This document shows, one piece after another, positions 5,210 to 18,173 of a stretch of DNA of 20,827 nucleotides (position 1 is its first letter; every line of letters starts with the position of its first letter). The notes below the pieces were generated by a model. The model saw only the letters and a program-made list of their open reading frames with translations. It was not told where the DNA came from and did no database searches. A program made the position numbers and the translations under genes. Origin of the DNA: a virus; the IMG/VR virus record IMGVR_UViG_3300032265_001298, positions 1 through 20,827 of that record; one strand, given 5' to 3'.

Positions 5210-5755
5210 ATTGATCCGATCACTCTTATTGCAATGGCAAGCACGGCTGTTGGATACATCAAACAAGGTTGTGCCCTTTATAAGGAATACAAAGCAACAG
5301 GTACTGAAGTGGCTGAAGTCATTCAAGACATCAGTGGTCACCTTGGTAAATTCTTTACTGCACAAGAAACCTTAGTCAAGGTTGTCAAAGAAGAAGAAAA
5401 GAAACCCAAAACTGTTTCATTAAATCAACAAGCGTTAGACAGGGTTTTAGCGCAAAGAAGAATGGCGCAGATGGAGGTTGAGTTAAGAGAGACTCTGATA
5501 TATCAAAGCCCACCTGAGTTGGGTGCAATATATACAGATTTCATAGAAATGCGAAAGGTAATTCAAGCAGAACAGGAACAGCAAGAAGAAGAGCTAAGGC
5601 AGCGTGAAAGACTTAAACAATGGCAACGAAAGCAAATGATAAGCGCACTGCAAGACAAGGCTCTGTATCTAATAGCGACTATGGTGGTTATTCTGTACCT
5701 GTATCTAATGGCGTATCTAATCGTTCTGGACAGGAAAGTTCGATGGGGTTTTTAA
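5210..5755 (+). CDS. Coiled-coil protein with C-terminal membrane anchor; ATT start proposed
   Basis: The first ATG of this frame is at 5234 and has no SD. An ATT at 5210 has AAGGGG six bases upstream and would give MDPITLIAMASTAVGYIKQG. The N-terminal pattern MDP-[IV]-[ST] is what I know from this phage family. With that start the protein is 181 residues. It has a helical N-terminus, LNQQALDRVLAQRRMAQMEVELRE, then LIYQSPPELGAIYTDFIEMRK, a Glu/Gln-rich charged helix, and a terminal transmembrane segment near residues 150-172. Proteins of this layout are common in phages near lysis and tail genes; their role is unknown. The conservative annotation would be 5234-5755 (173 residues). Confidence 0.7.
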   Translation: MDPITLIAMASTAVGYIKQGCALYKEYKATGTEVAEVIQDISGHLGKFFTAQETLVKVVKEEEKKPKTVSLNQQALDRVLAQRRMAQMEVELRETLIYQSPPELGAIYTDFIEMRKVIQAEQEQQEEELRQRERLKQWQRKQMISALQDKALYLIATMVVILYLYLMAYLIVLDRKVRWGF

Positions 5756-5901
5756 TTGGATTAGTTGTAATGTGTTTTGTTTTTGTCGTCATACTGCCTT
5801 TGATGGGGATGATGTACATGGACATCCTTGAAACAAAACATGAGACACAACACCAGCAAAAACAAATTCAAAAATTAATTAATGAAGCAAAGGAAAAATG
5901 A
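5743..5901 (+). CDS. Small single-span membrane protein of the lysis block
   Basis: The ATG at 5743 has SD AGGAAA seven bases upstream and gives 52 residues: a strongly hydrophobic N-terminal helix (GLVVMCFVFVVILPLMGMMY) followed by a charged coiled-coil tail (ETKHETQHQQKQIQKL). The same frame is open back to an ATG at 5620, giving a 93-residue form whose first 41 residues lie in an alternate frame of the previous gene. That start lacks a good SD and reads as a low-complexity extension. The layout fits an inner-membrane spanin or holin regulator, but there is no lipobox partner. Its stop overlaps the holin start (ATGA). Confidence 0.6.
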   Translation: MGFLIGLVVMCFVFVVILPLMGMMYMDILETKHETQHQQKQIQKLINEAKEK

Positions 5902-6395
5902 TGGATTGGCTTAAACAAATCGCTCCCACTATTGCCACAGCCCTTGGCGGTCCACTGGCTGGACTTGCTGTTGATGCAATCTCTAAAGCTGTTGGAATCG
6001 ACCCTAAAGACGTCAATAAGACCATTGCCGAGGGTAAGTTAACCGCTGACCAGATAGCCCAAATTAAAACCGCTGAATTGGCTATGGCGGCACGGGCGCA
6101 AGAGATGGGGTTGGATTTTGAAAAGATCGCTGTTGATGATCGCAAGTCTGCCAGACAAATGCAATCCACTACTCAGTCTTGGATACCTGGCATTATGGCT
6201 ATCGCCGTCACCCTTGGATTCTTTGGCATTTTGATTGGTTTGATGACCGAACACTTCAAAACATCTGATGCACTGATGCTAATGCTAGGGTCACTAGGTA
6301 CGGCATGGACGGGCATTATTGCTTTCTATTTTGGATCTTCTGCGGGTAGCCAAGCCAAAGATCAGCTTCTTCACAAATCAAGCCCTACACCATGA
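5898..6395 (+). CDS. Holin, 3-TM (GTA/DUF3154-like) family
   Basis: The 165-residue protein begins with an amphipathic segment, DWLKQIAPTIATALGGPLAGLAVDAIS. A helical region KDVNKTIAEGKLTADQIAQIKTAEL follows, then QSWIPGIMAIAVTLGFFGILIGL and a second span LMLMLGSLGTAWTGIIAFYFGSSAGS. This order is typical of the 3TM holin family in phages and gene transfer agents, which opens the inner membrane at lysis time. A second ATG follows immediately (5901); SD AAGGAAA supports either. The endolysin gene starts inside its last codons, so the two are coupled. Confidence 0.8.
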   Translation: MMDWLKQIAPTIATALGGPLAGLAVDAISKAVGIDPKDVNKTIAEGKLTADQIAQIKTAELAMAARAQEMGLDFEKIAVDDRKSARQMQSTTQSWIPGIMAIAVTLGFFGILIGLMTEHFKTSDALMLMLGSLGTAWTGIIAFYFGSSAGSQAKDQLLHKSSPTP

Positions 6396-13630: not shown

Positions 13631-13954
13631 ATGGAAGCAATTGACCCAAACAAAGCAATCAAATTCATCCAAGAAAACGCCAAAGAATATGCCGAAGCAA
13701 AGGCAACTAGGGTGCATCTTGAATCATTTCTAAAGACAGTAAAAGCTCAACTGATGAGCGAGTCAGATGAAAAGACATTGGGAGCGCAAGAAACATTTGC
13801 ATATGCTCATGGTCGCTACATTGATCAACTGCAAGAACTTAAAAACGCAGTTATCTCAGAAGAATATCTTCGGTACATGTTGAAGGCGGCTGAGATGCGT
13901 GTGGAAGTGTGGAAAGTGGAGCAATACACACTCAGAGCAGAAATGAGAATGTGA
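13631..13954 (+). CDS. Helical phage protein linked to recombination genes
   Basis: This 107-residue protein is almost wholly alpha-helical: KFIQENAKEYAEAKATRVHL, a KAQLM patch, AQETFAYAHGRYIDQLQELKN, and MLKAAEMRVEVWKVEQ. The pattern is familiar from small phage proteins found beside recombination and nuclease genes; the exact role is unknown. SD TAGGAAA precedes the ATG. Its stop overlaps the start of the YbcO-like gene. Confidence 0.7.
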   Translation: MEAIDPNKAIKFIQENAKEYAEAKATRVHLESFLKTVKAQLMSESDEKTLGAQETFAYAHGRYIDQLQELKNAVISEEYLRYMLKAAEMRVEVWKVEQYTLRAEMRM

Positions 13955-14337
13955 TGTACAGAGATGCAAACCTACTTAAATTGGCCAAAGATGAGAAATG
14001 CTTACTTCAGATTTCTGATGACTGTATGGGGGATGAGGGTTCCACAACGGTGGCGGCACATTCAAACCTTATGGAACATGGCAAAGGGAAGGGTTTGAAG
14101 GCTGAAAATTGCTTTACAGTGTGGTCTTGTTACAAGTGCCATTCACTTTTTGACCAGGGGGGGTCTTTCTCCCGTGAAGAAAAAAACGACCTCTTTTATG
14201 AAGCTTTATTGCGTCAGATTGAGGAATGGAGGAAAATAGCCATCAACCCCGCACTCAGGCCATGGAAGGTCGAAGCGGCCAGACAGGTGCTTGACCATTT
14301 AATCAACTTATACAAAGAGGACACCAATCATGGGTGA
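13954..14337 (+). CDS. YbcO/DUF1364-like nuclease
   Basis: The ATG at 13954 overlaps the previous stop (TGATG). The product is 127 residues starting MYRDANLLKLAKDEKCLLQI. The pattern CLLQISDDCMG, then TTVAAHSNL, KAENCFTVWSCYKCHSLFD and EWRK matches DUF1364/YbcO proteins, a small HNH-like nuclease family of lambdoid phages. Cys and His residues in the CxxC-type SCYKCH motif probably bind metal. It sits among RuvC-like and other recombination genes. A G7-TCTTT motif lies inside it at 14157-14168. Confidence 0.8.
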   Translation: MYRDANLLKLAKDEKCLLQISDDCMGDEGSTTVAAHSNLMEHGKGKGLKAENCFTVWSCYKCHSLFDQGGSFSREEKNDLFYEALLRQIEEWRKIAINPALRPWKVEAARQVLDHLINLYKEDTNHG

Positions 14338-14686
14338 ATTCATTCTTACCTTGCTCCATGCAGCCACCAATACCCATATCTTGCATTGGCAAACAAAATC
14401 CTTTGCTGATCACATGGCTTTGAATGAGTTTTACCAAGCATTGCCCGAATTGATAGATGCAGTTGTAGAAGCCACACAAGGCCGTTATGGCCAAATAATT
14501 GAATATCCTGTCCAATACTATGCACCTGCGGCAAATGGTCTTGAAGAGCTTGAAATGCTGAAAGATTACGTTGATGAGGAACGGCATAAGGAAGGCATCC
14601 CACAGGATAGCGAAATCCAAAACCTGATTGACGAGATAGCCAGCCAGATAGACAGCACGTTGTACAAGTTGCGATTCTTAAAATAG
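14330..14686 (+). CDS. Dps/ferritin-like phage protein (DUF5856-type)
   Basis: The 118-residue protein has LHAATNTHILHWQTKSFADHMALNEFYQ near the N-terminus. H16, H19-W20 and H28, followed by E40, D43 and E47, resemble the metal-binding pattern of Dps and other small ferritin-like proteins. The C-terminal half is a second helical hairpin. Dps proteins bind DNA and store iron in starvation, but the phage member may bind metal for another purpose. It overlaps the nuclease gene by eight bases and is the last gene before the right-operon terminator. Confidence 0.7.
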   Translation: MGEFILTLLHAATNTHILHWQTKSFADHMALNEFYQALPELIDAVVEATQGRYGQIIEYPVQYYAPAANGLEELEMLKDYVDEERHKEGIPQDSEIQNLIDEIASQIDSTLYKLRFLK

Positions 14687-14704
14687 TCTGCGGAAAATTC
14701 ATAA

Positions 14705-14740
14705 TTTAGACTCTAAAAAAAATAGGGGTCTAAATTTTTT
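14705..14740 (+). terminator. Intrinsic terminator of the right early operon
   Basis: TTTAGAC (14705-14711) pairs with GTCTAAA (14728-14734) around a 16-base loop, and TTTTTT follows at 14735-14740. The position, 18 bases after the ferritin-like gene stop, fits the end of the rightward early transcript. Confidence 0.75.
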
Positions 14741-14745
14741 GGGGA

Positions 14746-14757
14746 GGGGGGGTCTTT
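14746..14757 (+). repeat. G7-TCTTT motif after the terminator
   Basis: GGGGGGGTCTTT, followed by TCT, lies just beyond the T-run. It is one of four G6-7-TCTTT sites on the plus strand. Confidence 0.6.
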
Positions 14758-14788
14758 TCTTACACACAAGAAAAATCTCATTTTTTTA

Positions 14789-14850
14789 AGTATTACTGTT
14801 GTTTTATACAGTATTACTGGATATATACAGTAGTAAAATAGTTGTATAAT
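14789..14850 (+). promoter_or_regulatory. Repeated AGTATTACTG sites upstream of a TATAAT
   Basis: AGTATTACTG occurs at 14789-14798 and 14810-14819, with a degenerate copy at 14829. The spacing is about two helical turns. Each site is close to self-complementary. TATAAT at 14845-14850 could be a -10 for a rightward transcript, but no gene follows in that direction until 17625. Confidence 0.4.
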
Positions 14851-15082
14851 ACTTTTTTCAATCGGCGGACATAGTGTCATTAGTAGTCGCTGTTTTTCCC
14901 TTAGAAGATCGCTGATTTTGCCTTGATTTTGCTGGGTTTTCGGCCTGTTTTCGGCCTGTGGTGGCCAACTTGTGGCATGGTGCAGCCTGTGGCCTGTGAT
15001 CGGTGGCTGCTGGTGATCGGTGATCAGCTGCTGGCTGCTGGTGGCCTGTGCTGCCCTGATCTGCTGGCCTGATCTGCTGGCA

Positions 15083-15154
15083 TTGTCGCTGGGTTTATAA
15101 AATACCCCTAAAATCGATTTTAAGCCACCTAGAATCGATTTATTGTCGCTGGGT
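15083..15154 (+). repeat. Two exact copies of TTGTCGCTGGGT, 60 bases apart
   Basis: The 12-mer is at 15083-15094 and 15143-15154, flanking the TAAAATCGATTTTA palindrome (15109-15122) and a second AATCGATT (15133-15140). Core GTCGCTGG also occurs at 15583, 16819 and, on the minus strand, 16355 and 16365. Confidence 0.7.
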
Positions 15155-15236
15155 GATGCACAGGTGGCATGATGCACTAAAAACCCCTTAAAAAGCCTAT
15201 TTTGAGAATGTAAGCACTCACTTCGCAAACACTGCC

Positions 15237-15264
15237 AAAAAAACACCAGTTGTTACGCTGGTGT
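15237..15264 (-). terminator. Intrinsic terminator of the minus-strand module operon
   Basis: Read leftward, ACACCAG pairs with CTGGTGT around an 8-base loop (15264 to 15243), followed by seven T residues from the A-tract at 15237-15243. It lies 21 bases after the last gene of the operon that starts at 16785. Confidence 0.82.
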
Positions 15265-15285
15265 GTTTGTGGTGATATTCGCTGA

Positions 15286-15450
15286 TCAGGGCATGCGATC
15301 GATCAGTACCCAGAATTGATCTGGCAGCACTATGCGGATCTGCCACTGGCCAGATATTGGCCTGCAGTAGATCAGGCCATTGTGCGAGCCTGTGACGGTC
15401 CACAGGGCTGCATTATCGTCAGTGGTTATCACACCTACAGCGCCGATCAT
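15286..15450 (-). CDS. 54-residue protein at the end of the module operon
   Basis: The ATG overlaps the stop of the Cys-rich gene (ATGA at 15450-15447). The product begins MIGAVGVITTDDNAALWTVT and goes on SHNGLIYCRPISGQWQIRIV. It looks all-beta, with regular hydrophobic alternation, and ends DQFWVLIDRMP. Translational coupling, protein-like sequence and the terminator right behind it support a real gene. The function is not recognised. The DNA is dense in GATC, with six sites between 15284 and 15373. Confidence 0.6.
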   Translation of the reverse strand: MIGAVGVITTDDNAALWTVTGSHNGLIYCRPISGQWQIRIVLPDQFWVLIDRMP

Positions 15451-16124
15451 GCTGCCACCTGTGACATGTAAAACACTTTTTCGACTTTAGCTTTCCCTGT
15501 GCCATGTGCTGGGAAACCTATTATTGTTTCACGCTGTCGCTGACACAGCTGGCAGGTGGCGCAGCTGACATCGTCTCTATATGTCGCTGGGCAGGTGATA
15601 ACTTTATGGCCAGCTGGTGTGGTCAGCTGGGCAGGTGCATCAACAGGCAACACCACCACCACAGGACCAGCACCTGTGTCATACAACTGGTCAGCATGGT
15701 GCAGGTCATTCGCTGACAGGTTTACAGTGAAATTCCATGTGTTGGCCTGTTTCACCCAGTACAAAGCTTCTGCGCTGTGTTTGTGTGTATATGTAAAACC
15801 CCTGCGGCCTGTGTTTGCTTTGACCAGCTGTCCCAGTGCAACAGGATCGACAGATTCACCAATGCCAGGCAGATCACCAGCTTGATTGTGTCTCCACAGC
15901 TGGCCATCGGGCAGCGCTGCGATAGTGTCGCAGAATTCTGACCATGCCATGCCCCTATCACCTGCGGTCACTTTGGCCCAGTGTAGGGCCAGTGGTCCAC
16001 TGTCAGCGTAGCAACCCTGTTTTTTAAATGGACAGCTACTAGGGCAGGTTTCGGCGCTGCTAGTACTTGCAGGGATCGGCCCTGTTTTTGCATTCGCTGA
16101 CTTCATAGTTAGATGTACTTGCAT
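15447..16124 (-). CDS. Cys-rich Gp88/DUF7227-type protein
   Basis: This 225-residue protein is the largest of the module. NAKTGPIP (residues 11-18) precedes TCPSSCPFKKQGCYADSGPL, with C27, C31 and C38 in a C-x3-C-x6-C array. The centre has DGQLWRHNQAGDLPG, GRRGFTYTHKHSAEAL and WNFTVNLSAND. Near the end C178, C188, C191 and C194 form C-x9-C-x2-C-x2-C, followed by IIGFPAHG. This layout matches phage and prophage proteins of the Gp88 and DUF7227 type. Two Cys groups suggest a metal or Fe-S site, and a radical-SAM-like origin is possible but unproved. Composition differs from the rest of the phage. Confidence 0.78.
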   Translation of the reverse strand: MQVHLTMKSANAKTGPIPASTSSAETCPSSCPFKKQGCYADSGPLALHWAKVTAGDRGMAWSEFCDTIAALPDGQLWRHNQAGDLPGIGESVDPVALGQLVKANTGRRGFTYTHKHSAEALYWVKQANTWNFTVNLSANDLHHADQLYDTGAGPVVVVLPVDAPAQLTTPAGHKVITCPATYRDDVSCATCQLCQRQRETIIGFPAHGTGKAKVEKVFYMSQVAA

Positions 16125-16125
16125 A

Positions 16126-16212
16126 TTAAACCCCTAAAAAAATAATAAAAAACAAAAACACAGCTGCGACAGCGCAGGCCAGCATTACAGGTTTATCAGT
16201 AGAGTCGATCAT
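16126..16212 (-). CDS. 28-residue membrane peptide between two module genes
   Basis: The ATG overlaps the previous stop (ATGA at 16212-16209). The product is MIDSTDKPVMLACAVAAVFL, then FFIIFLGV and TAA. Residues 10-28 form one hydrophobic helix after a short polar N-terminus. The next gene starts two bases after the stop. Its position in a coupled operon supports expression, although a leader peptide with no product role is also possible. Function unknown. Confidence 0.5.
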   Translation of the reverse strand: MIDSTDKPVMLACAVAAVFLFFIIFLGV

Positions 16213-16544
16213 GCTTTCCCCTTTTGAATTGTGGTGGTGATACGGGGTACGTTAACCACTGTTTTTGTGTGTGCTGTCAACAGCTGACGTGACGGGTTGA
16301 AATGCATGGCCACTGCTTCCCAGTTAACACGATCTGACTCTGACTCTGCTGTGACCAGCGACTGCCAGCGACTGCCCAGATAACGACCTGCGCCCTGCGC
16401 TTTAATAGTGGCTTTAATGCTGTCGATCTGTGCTTTAAGCACTGCAGCATCATCTTCTAATTGACCCAGCTGATCAACCAGCAGATCAATTGACGGCGTC
16501 AGCGTGATCACTGCAGCTGTTGTGGTGTGTGTGGTGGTTTCCAT
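16209..16544 (-). CDS. Gp157-like helical phage protein
   Basis: This 111-residue protein begins METTTHTTTAAVITLTPSID. It then has a coiled-coil-like helix (LVDQLGQLEDDAAVLKAQIDSIKATIK) and a Gly/Arg segment (GAGRYLGSRWQSLVTAE). The end is DRVNWEAVAMHFNPSRQLLTAHTKT followed by a basic tail. The helix followed by a short beta domain recalls small phage proteins of the siphovirus Gp157 kind, which are linked to resistance to other phages. This is a pattern call only. Two GTCGCTGG octamers lie inside it. Confidence 0.6.
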   Translation of the reverse strand: METTTHTTTAAVITLTPSIDLLVDQLGQLEDDAAVLKAQIDSIKATIKAQGAGRYLGSRWQSLVTAESESDRVNWEAVAMHFNPSRQLLTAHTKTVVNVPRITTTIQKGKA

Positions 16545-16575
16545 GGTGGTTCCTTTGCTTTACTGTGGTTAAAAA

Positions 16576-16785
16576 TTAAATACTTTTTGACTCTAAACGC
16601 TCTGCATCTTGTGCATTTGCATAAACTCTGGCCAGATCAGAATTAAATGCATTTAAAAGCTTTTCACGATTATTAGAATCGGCCAGCTGTAATGCACATC
16701 CAACGCTAGACATGAACGAGCCGTAATGGCCATCTTGCAATATGCGTGCTATTTTGAATACTTGATCAGGTGTGAAAACAATCAT
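16576..16785 (-). CDS. First gene of the module operon, small helical protein
   Basis: The 69-residue protein starts MIVFTPDQVFKIARILQDGH with SD AAGGGG upstream on the minus strand. It is helical throughout, with FNSDLARVYANAQDAERLES near the end. It has no membrane span and one cysteine. It opens a five-gene leftward operon. A DnaA-box-like TGTGAATAA (16797-16805) overlaps its leader. I do not recognise a family. Confidence 0.65.
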   Translation of the reverse strand: MIVFTPDQVFKIARILQDGHYGSFMSSVGCALQLADSNNREKLLNAFNSDLARVYANAQDAERLESKSI

Positions 16786-17001
16786 TTTTTGCCCCTTGTG
16801 AATAACTGATGTTTACTGTCGCTGGCACTGTTGCCAGTGATAAATACTATGCAAACAATGTGCCACCTATTAAACCCAGCGATAATTAAACCTTATGACA
16901 ACAGAATCAACATTATTTTAGAATTGACCATATCCCATATTGGTGCATTATTTAATGTCGCGCATGACAATAGTGCATAGAATCACCGATAGAGTGCATG
17001 C

Positions 17002-17088
17002 TGTGGATACTGTGGATAAGTAGCACCCCTGTGGATATCTGTTTGATTGTTTGCTTTATTCAAGAAAAAAAAGAAAAGAAAAAATAAC
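17002..17088 (+). other. Candidate replication origin: three DnaA boxes and AT-rich tract
   Basis: TGTGGATAC (17002-17010), TGTGGATAA (17011-17019) and TGTGGATAT (17030-17038) are in the same orientation. The middle one is the exact complement of the DnaA consensus TTATCCACA, and the others differ at one end base. The first two are adjacent and the third is 19 bases further on. An AT-rich stretch with long A-runs follows to 17088 and could be the unwinding element. No Rep or O-type gene adjoins it. Confidence 0.55.
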
Positions 17089-17416
17089 CCTGATCAGCTG
17101 CTGATCACATAAGGGAAGAGATAAGGGGCTGACAGTGGTGTTTATAAGCTGCTGTGGTGATACTGCTGGCCATGTGAAACCCGCAAAAACCCCTATAAAC
17201 CTTGGCCTGTATGTACTCTGACTGTATAGCCAGACACAAGGACAACTGGCATGGCCAGACCGATCAGCCACACTACAAAAACACGAAAAGCATACCTGCC
17301 CCTGTAGGTTTATTGTCGCTCCACAATTACTGACCAGCGAGTCATTAATTATCCGCAGCACTGGCACTGGTCAACACACAGCTGGCCACCTGTATACCCA
17401 CCCCATGTAGGCAAAA

Positions 17417-17459
17417 GGGGGGAGGGGGGTAGCACTGGAAGCACCAAAAAAAGGGGGGG
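17417..17459 (+). repeat. Cluster of three G-runs ahead of the packaging genes
   Basis: GGGGGG (17417-17422), A, GGGGGG (17424-17429), then GGGGGGG (17453-17459). The runs could form quadruplexes or mark a packaging or cleavage site near the terminase genes. This is a suggestion from position only. Confidence 0.45.
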
Positions 17460-17518
17460 CCCACTCACCCATTCCCAAATTTTTTTTAAAAAGTCTAGCC
17501 ACGGGCGACAATAACTTG

Positions 17519-17524
17519 TATAGA
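17519..17524 (+). promoter_or_regulatory. Possible late promoter -10
   Basis: TATAGA (17519-17524) lies about 100 bases before the first packaging gene and after a T-run. No good -35 is found at 16-18 bases upstream, so activation by a phage factor would be needed if it is used. Confidence 0.3.
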
Positions 17525-17526
17525 AT

Positions 17527-17602
17527 GGAGTTTCTAGCGCACAGTAACTGGATTCATTTGCTCCTTGCTTAATGACCGACCATCCAGAACTCCCTGCGCT
17601 AG
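17527..17602 (+). promoter_or_regulatory. Two crossing inverted repeats in the packaging leader
   Basis: GGAGTT (17527-17532) is complementary to AACTCC (17588-17593), and CTAGCGCA (17534-17541) to TGCGCTAG (17595-17602). The order of arms makes the two helices cross, so they are either a pseudoknot or two exclusive folds. They end ten bases before the SD of the next gene. Confidence 0.5.
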
Positions 17603-17624
17603 TACCTATTGCAAAGGAAATGAA

Positions 17625-18173
17625 ATGCGTGAATGGTTACTTGCTGATCCTAGATATGACATAGACGATATAGTTGCCTTGGCTGATGACCAGTATGGTC
17701 CTGAGACTGAGGGCATCTTGGCTAAGAGTCCTGCTACGTTGCGCCGTCATGCAACAGTTACTGCCACTGTACAACTGTTTGACAAGAGTAAAGAATTTCT
17801 TGCTGTTTGCCGTGGTGGTGATTCGGAACAGTTGTTGGGGTTTTGTTGGTTTGACCGTGGGGGTTATACAACCTACTCGGTTGAAGAGATCTCAAATTCT
17901 AAATTCCATTTTGTTGATAAAAATTTGCCGTTGCGGTTGCGGTTTACATTGATTAATGAGATGATTGATCAACATATCCTTTGGGCTGGCAATTGCGGGA
18001 TTCCTGTCATTTGCTCAACTTCGATTAGGATGGAGCATAGTGCGTTTGTTAGAATCCATAGTAAACGTGGATTTACTGTCAATGGTTCATATGCTTGGAT
18101 GAGAACTGAAAAAGGAATTGAATGGCTACGGTTGCAAAATTTAACAGACCATCAGGAAGACCATCACCTGTAA
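17625..18173 (+). CDS. GNAT-like phage protein upstream of terminase
   Basis: I chose the ATG at 17625, with AAAGGAA seven bases upstream, over an in-frame ATG at 17565 without SD. The 182-residue product starts MREWLLADPRYDIDDIVALA. A beta-rich middle (LLGFCWFDRGGYTTYSVEEIS) precedes a helical NEMIDQHILWAGNCG and the ending RIHSKRGFTVNGSYAWMR, which resembles the C-terminal strand-helix-strand of GNAT acetyltransferases. The acetyl-CoA loop is not clear, so the enzyme activity is uncertain. It overlaps the next gene by 52 bases. Confidence 0.55.
   Translation: MREWLLADPRYDIDDIVALADDQYGPETEGILAKSPATLRRHATVTATVQLFDKSKEFLAVCRGGDSEQLLGFCWFDRGGYTTYSVEEISNSKFHFVDKNLPLRLRFTLINEMIDQHILWAGNCGIPVICSTSIRMEHSAFVRIHSKRGFTVNGSYAWMRTEKGIEWLRLQNLTDHQEDHHL

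Follow-up and report, generated by a model that had tools for sequence, protein, structure and literature searches.

The virus record IMGVR_UViG_3300032265_001298 is a linear stretch of 20,827 bases (the window, meaning the whole stretch of DNA analyzed here), and its 3' end falls within a terminase large-subunit gene. The subject of this work is a block of about 2.7 kb (14687-17624) that holds five minus-strand genes and lies between a DUF5856 gene, which ends at 14686, and another that starts at 17625, is called GNAT-like for orientation only and has no Pfam or PHROGs match. The block is flanked on both sides by plus-strand units, and a preliminary description of this DNA had likewise placed it between two transcription units; the left neighbor is the end of a rightward nuclease/DUF5856 operon, and the right neighbor is the start of an operon leading into the terminase. 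Our comparison with related phages indicated that this block is a resident locus whose content is exchanged as a unit, and that each version of it has a word usage of its own.

Genes, edges and signals of the block

The five minus-strand genes previously listed (69, 111, 28, 225 and 54 amino acids [aa] long) were all retained, four of them backed by relatives in other blocks and the 28-aa gene by a similar small open reading frame (ORF) at the same place in the related locus L108. The 69-aa ORF (16576-16785) has relatives in 6 blocks and the 111-aa ORF (16209-16544) in 24, and alignment of the latter revealed a conserved DWxAIAxxFNPSxQLITAHT-like motif close to the C-terminus. As a lone query, the 111-aa protein found no viral relatives, which is a sensitivity limit of that search because tblastn does find them. 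At two junctions of the operon, the stop of one gene overlaps the start of the next. One of these joins the 111-aa gene to the gene for the 28-aa hydrophobic peptide (MIDSTDKPVMLACAVAAVFLFFIIFLGV; 16126-16212), which was read from the sequence, and the other joins the 225-aa gene (15447-16124; relatives in 43 blocks) to the 54-aa ORF (15286-15450; relatives in 26 blocks at 39-70% identity). All of these block counts include the window itself, and the figure of 43 comes from single-linkage clustering, which joins GP88-like proteins.

The 225-aa protein is a DUF7227 member of the GP88/DUF7227 superfamily. It matched Pfam DUF7227 with an E value of 7e-87 (291 bits; cut-off, 27) and Pfam GP88 with an E value of 7e-7 (29.8 bits; cut-off, 24.4), and seven cysteine columns (27, 31, 38, 178, 188, 191 and 194) are invariant in its alignment. 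The structure was predicted with confidence (predicted local distance difference test score [pLDDT], 88.5) but gave no significant match in the PDB, where the best E value was 0.014 and the hits were mostly barrel proteins with low TM-scores; no sequence match was obtained either.

At the left edge (14705-14754, plus strand), a terminator-like stem of the upstream operon (14705-14711/14728-14734) is followed by AAATTTTTTGGGGAGGGGGGGTC at 14732-14754, with a G-run at 14741-14752. The sequence AAATTTTTTGAGGGGGGGGTC occurs near the left edge in 40 of 67 blocks with at most 5 mismatches; this element is looser than the one on the right. In five divergent phages (L132, L150, L153, L154 and L227), a similar alternating purine-pyrimidine tract (ACACACGCGCACCCATGCGC-like) directly follows the left G-run. 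Within the block, positions 14900-15095 form a quasi-repetitive tract of the private words CTGCTGG, GATCGGTG and GGCCTG, which is C/A-rich and T-poor on the minus strand and has the top short-range repeat score of the contig (181; 99th percentile outside, 73). Many relatives have a comparable tract near the left edge, built from other words. A part played by this C/A-rich tract in Rho utilization is conceivable, as is an explanation through CTG as a primase site. The operon has its own intrinsic terminator at 15237-15264, in agreement with the preliminary description: a minus-strand stem (15264-15243) is followed by T's, and both L108 and L129 have a terminator-like hairpin in the corresponding position.

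The right edge (17417-17495) is conserved across blocks and consists of a G-run (about 17417-17430) with TAGCACTGGA, a 26-nucleotide (nt) core, GGGGGGCCCACTCACCCATTCCCAAA, at 17454-17479, and an A/T tract. When up to 7 mismatches are allowed over its 26 positions, the core is present in 64 of 67 blocks; the next-best site in the window has 10. The G-runs at the two edges correspond to the repeats that had been noted on both sides of the block. No conserved RNA structure was evident in the right element (7 predicted pairs, 0 with compensatory change), and an Rfam search of the window gave no match. Sites resembling DnaA boxes lie at 17002-17037, with one perfect box (TTATCCACA/TGTGGATAA) at 17011-17019 and partial boxes (TGTGGATA) at 17002 and 17030. 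Across blocks, the perfect box has 34 copies, a density of 0.164/kb compared with 0.027/kb outside (6-fold), and is found in 26 of 67 blocks. The term "cluster," applied earlier to these sites, is generous because most box-bearing blocks hold a single copy.

Some further observations concern the surroundings of these features. A YbcO-like/HNH nuclease gene (13909-14337) lies immediately upstream of the DUF5856 gene. Contig ends of relatives cluster at varying positions just upstream of the GNAT-like gene, several of them in or beside the G-rich right element; given this variation and the recording of the related phage MW202484 as circular, assembly breaks at G-runs are as likely as genome ends. 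In some relatives (L235:21500-21580; L201), the stretch from the right element to the GNAT-like gene contains tRNA-like sequences, seen by eye only.

A resident locus exchanged as a unit

Relatives were gathered from IMG/VR by searching with the two genes to the right of the block. The loci are the best 80 matches per search, seeded by the window's own genes, and therefore represent the kin of this phage. Many of the contigs are incomplete, gene matches defined the block edges, and the statistics on pairs or loci given below ignore phylogenetic non-independence. All 66 non-redundant relatives that span the interval from the DUF5856 gene to the GNAT-like gene hold a block of 1.7-5.2 kb there. 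No empty site was found among these 66, and the loci seeded by DUF5856 overlap contigs already in the set, so that they add no independent check of this point. Since every relative spanning the locus carries one, the block is not an insertion. MW202484, the only named phage among the relatives retrieved, shares this layout. The preliminary description had considered that close relatives might all carry the same block with the same composition; the block is indeed present in all spanning relatives, but its composition is not the same.

The longest minus-strand ORF in most blocks encodes a cysteine-rich protein with a length of about 215-290 aa. Ten of these longest ORFs were tested. Seven passed the Pfam GP88 cut-off, and that of L169, although below the DUF7227 cut-off, matches the PHROG to which the window protein was assigned; the exceptions were L082, with a cytosine methylase, and L106, with a beta-clamp-like protein. 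By tblastn with one query per type, a GP88/DUF7227-superfamily gene was located on the minus strand in 58 of 67 blocks. Where recognizable, the content of the blocks is phage genes. In L082, the window's closest relative, the minus-strand ORF at 5269-6276 of the block is a C-5 cytosine DNA methylase (Pfam E value, 2e-33). The longest ORF of L106 (6169-6807) resembles the central domain of the DNA polymerase III beta subunit (Pfam E value, 7e-7), and its best PHROGs match is a RusA-like family, with a processivity factor also listed.

Comparison of close relatives indicated that related phages swap entire blocks. The identity between L108 and L126 is 91% on the left side of the block and 96% on the right, whereas their sole match inside it is a 72% stretch near the right end. 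Likewise, less than 30% of the block core was alignable in 22 of 42 pairs (not independent of one another) whose right flanks were at least 80% identical, and in L210/L227, a flank identity of 95% is accompanied by a core coverage of 2%. The window provides a further case. Its flanking proteins are closest to those of L082 (81-92% for most), and its block genes are closer to those of L168 than to those of L082 (54-aa protein, 70% versus 48%; 111-aa protein, 67% versus 42%; DUF7227 protein, 82% versus absent). DNA similarity between the window and L082 ends at 14757 and restarts at 17417. The idea of an acquired module is upheld insofar as the block is discrete, sharp-edged and exchanged as a unit, but not as an insertion that relatives lack. 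Exchange may have occurred by homologous recombination via the conserved flanks and edges.

A private vocabulary in each block

The shift in composition toward CTGG, CAGCTG and GATC that first drew attention to this region was borne out by our analysis. The GC content is 0.464 in the block and 0.423 in the flanks, and CTGG (18.7 versus 6.0 per kb), CAGCTG (4.8 versus 0.0), GATC (9.2 versus 3.7) and TGGCC (10.6 versus 2.8) are all more frequent in the block. Its tetranucleotide Jensen-Shannon divergence of 0.061 makes it the outlier of the contig (other segments of equal length: mean, 0.015; maximum, 0.022; z 13.2). The preference for CTG as a leucine codon was also confirmed in the 225-aa gene, where 10 of 15 leucines are CTG and 10 of 12 glutamines are CAG. 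In 48 of 49 loci, no other segment of the same length is as divergent as the block, and the top words vary from phage to phage.

Because the contrast between coding and noncoding DNA could account for part of this divergence, two controls were applied. After greedy clustering into 36 representative blocks, 30 of which were usable with both flanks, the left half of a block retrieved its own right half first in 21 of 30 cases (k = 5), compared with 5 of 30 for left flanks and 4 of 30 for right flanks. The synonymous codons of block genes fitted the vocabulary of the rest of their own block, a reference that includes the other genes of the block, with a mean z of 5.2, compared with 1.5 for the blocks of other phages, and the own-block value was the higher one in 30 of 32 cases. 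Even where sister alleles differ at synonymous sites, the codons favor the dialect in most pairs (9 of 12 with t above 3), and the dialects of the alleles are thus visible even at recently changed sites. The trinucleotide bias of a word correlates with that of its reverse complement (0.53-0.90), and this strand symmetry rules out codon- or mRNA-level bias as the sole cause. Nor is enrichment of CTG a rule common to all alleles: the DUF7227 genes of the window and L168 contain 20-22 CTG and CAG codons, and those of L119, L126, L153, L109 and close kin, which avoid these codons, contain none. Dialects differ even between near-identical phages. Collectively, these data demonstrate that each block is written in its own private, strand-symmetric vocabulary, which is shared by both halves and also shapes synonymous codons. 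A limited literature search retrieved no paper on this kind of dialect, on DUF7227 or on PF17338, which is weak evidence of absence.

Direct 8-mer repeats are enriched in blocks 8.5-fold over a trinucleotide model at distances below 50 nt and 1.2-fold beyond 1.6 kb, whereas the short-range enrichment in the flanks is 1.5- to 2.2-fold. Inverted 8-mer repeats show no comparable short-range rise in blocks. In the single pair L108/L129, 16 gaps fall in the block and 2 in the flank, many of them in the quasi-repetitive tract. The decaying excess of direct repeats fits a process of short-range duplication, which may have operated within the blocks.

Possible origins of the dialect and comparison with known systems

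Our data are best explained, with a fair degree of probability, by a hypervariable and probably early cassette that is resident in a family of about 40-kb freshwater phages, is exchanged by recombination and accommodates in its main slot one of several divergent proteins of the GP88/DUF7227 superfamily. The cassette is a small minus-strand operon that has noncoding arms and is fixed between the end of the DUF5856 operon and the start of the operon leading into the terminase. Whole blocks replace one another between close relatives, probably by homologous recombination in the conserved flanks and edges, in which the phage's own Erf-like annealing protein may assist. The operon would be expressed early and act on the host, which is plausible because named phages carry homologues in regions of first genes or of early type: a gene of the GP88 superfamily is gp01 of CRP-4 and gp04 of CRP-345, in Peaches it is the last but one at the right end, and a homologue in PAK_P1 sits among small unknown genes. 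The dialect would be made and maintained by a process confined to the double-stranded DNA of the block, most likely frequent short-range duplication or slippage together with block-specific turnover that spreads favored words, which would be tolerated in genes mainly at synonymous positions.

Several points weigh against this explanation. Slippage does not easily account for a block-wide symmetric bias or for the complete lack of CTG and CAG codons in some DUF7227 alleles, and in most pairs of sister alleles, adherence to the dialect is weaker at the variable synonymous sites than at the conserved ones. Both slippage and edge-mediated exchange are inferred from sequence patterns, and early expression from map position in other phages. 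The association of the dialect with the gene family is also uneven. Among 53 DUF7227-bearing loci of other phages, 42 have their composition peak no more than 1.8 kb away from the DUF7227 gene, where chance would give about 15. In named phages, the neighborhood of the homologous gene ranks near the top in composition in Peaches (2/191) and MW202484 (6/158), but it is not the peak in PAK_P1 (22/363), CRP-4 (12/154) or CRP-345 (51/191). In view of this mixed pattern, the link between the dialect and the GP88/DUF7227 family is suggestive only. DUF7227 relatives were also observed in bacterial assemblies (L268-L293), repeatedly from Variovorax.

Since slippage alone is insufficient for the block-wide symmetric bias, and since variable synonymous sites follow the dialect less closely, selection on the words themselves is the main rival explanation, although we regard it as unlikely. 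A DNA-binding factor encoded by the allele or the host, with an allele-specific preference for short words, would coat, protect or mark the whole block, and the factor and the word usage would co-evolve as a self-recognition or incompatibility type. Strand symmetry, the reach of the bias across the block and its genes, the closer adherence of conserved synonymous sites, the sharp differences between alleles of near-identical phages and the all-or-none use of CTG and CAG codons in the DUF7227 gene are all consistent with such selection. However, the top words could not be reduced by eye to a single site consensus, the repeat enrichment is mainly short-range and in direct orientation, and Pfam and PHROGs searches of the ORFs in the window's block recognized no known DNA-binding protein. 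It is more doubtful still that the locus is allelic in the sense that its whole double-stranded DNA, genes included, is kept to an allele-specific word code read by a sequence-specific partner for self-marking or incompatibility. In that event, the code itself, besides the proteins, would be what is exchanged and diversified.

Similarly doubtful is a role of the noncoding right arm with its DnaA boxes as the phage origin, the odd composition being a by-product of origin-linked processes. The 6-fold density of TTATCCACA, the long noncoding arms and the conserved right element are in line with this possibility, but the perfect box is missing from more than half of the blocks, no clear GC-skew switch occurs at the block and no initiator gene was found among its ORFs in the window (Pfam, PHROGs). 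Of the replication signals proposed earlier, the enrichment of DnaA boxes at the locus is real, while origin function is putative only. Slightly less probable again is a donor signature, in which alleles would have come recently from phages or hosts of differing composition and would not yet have ameliorated. Blocks are clearly exchanged and differ in composition from their flanks. However, the flanks of relatives are ordinary and mutually similar in composition, so that, in the DNA examined, no member of the family displays such a dialect outside the locus as a donor would; moreover, synonymous changes between sister alleles follow the dialect rather than flank usage. Derivation from a plasmid or satellite with its own replication origin, as proposed in the preliminary description on the basis of sharp edges, foreign-looking composition and DnaA boxes, is highly improbable and can be dismissed, given the missing empty site, the related gene families at the same place in relatives, the lack of an integrase, Rep or relaxase among the block ORFs of the window (Pfam, PHROGs) and only 2 matches of the 225-aa protein among 72,556 plasmid records, both classed as non-mobilizable. 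Odd composition is routinely taken as a sign of foreign origin; here, the outlier is a resident locus, which cautions against this shortcut.

The resident cassette favored here can be compared with several known systems. In most blocks, the main gene is a member of the GP88 (PF17338) or the DUF7227 (PF23872) family, both of unknown function, and the distinctive feature here is that divergent members replace one another at one locus. This uncharacterized, widespread superfamily is now tied to a diversifying locus. In lambdoid phages, swapping of the immunity region also exchanges an allelic block between otherwise similar genomes; our locus resembles this exchange but differs in position, and no repressor/operator set was identified in it. 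Hypervariable early or host-takeover modules of phages consist of small unknown genes in a run, with high turnover between close relatives and modular exchange. The block shares these small unknown genes, turnover and modular exchange but differs in its private strand-symmetric vocabulary, which extends over genes and noncoding DNA, and in its conserved edge elements. Cryptic simplicity, or slippage-derived sequence, is characterized by scrambled short direct repeats that are strongest at short range, as are those of the block. In our case, however, the effect is limited to one exchangeable locus, has a separate vocabulary for each allele and is seen in synonymous codons, and dozens of such alleles on similar backbones offer a natural system for studying what bends word usage in a small part of a genome.

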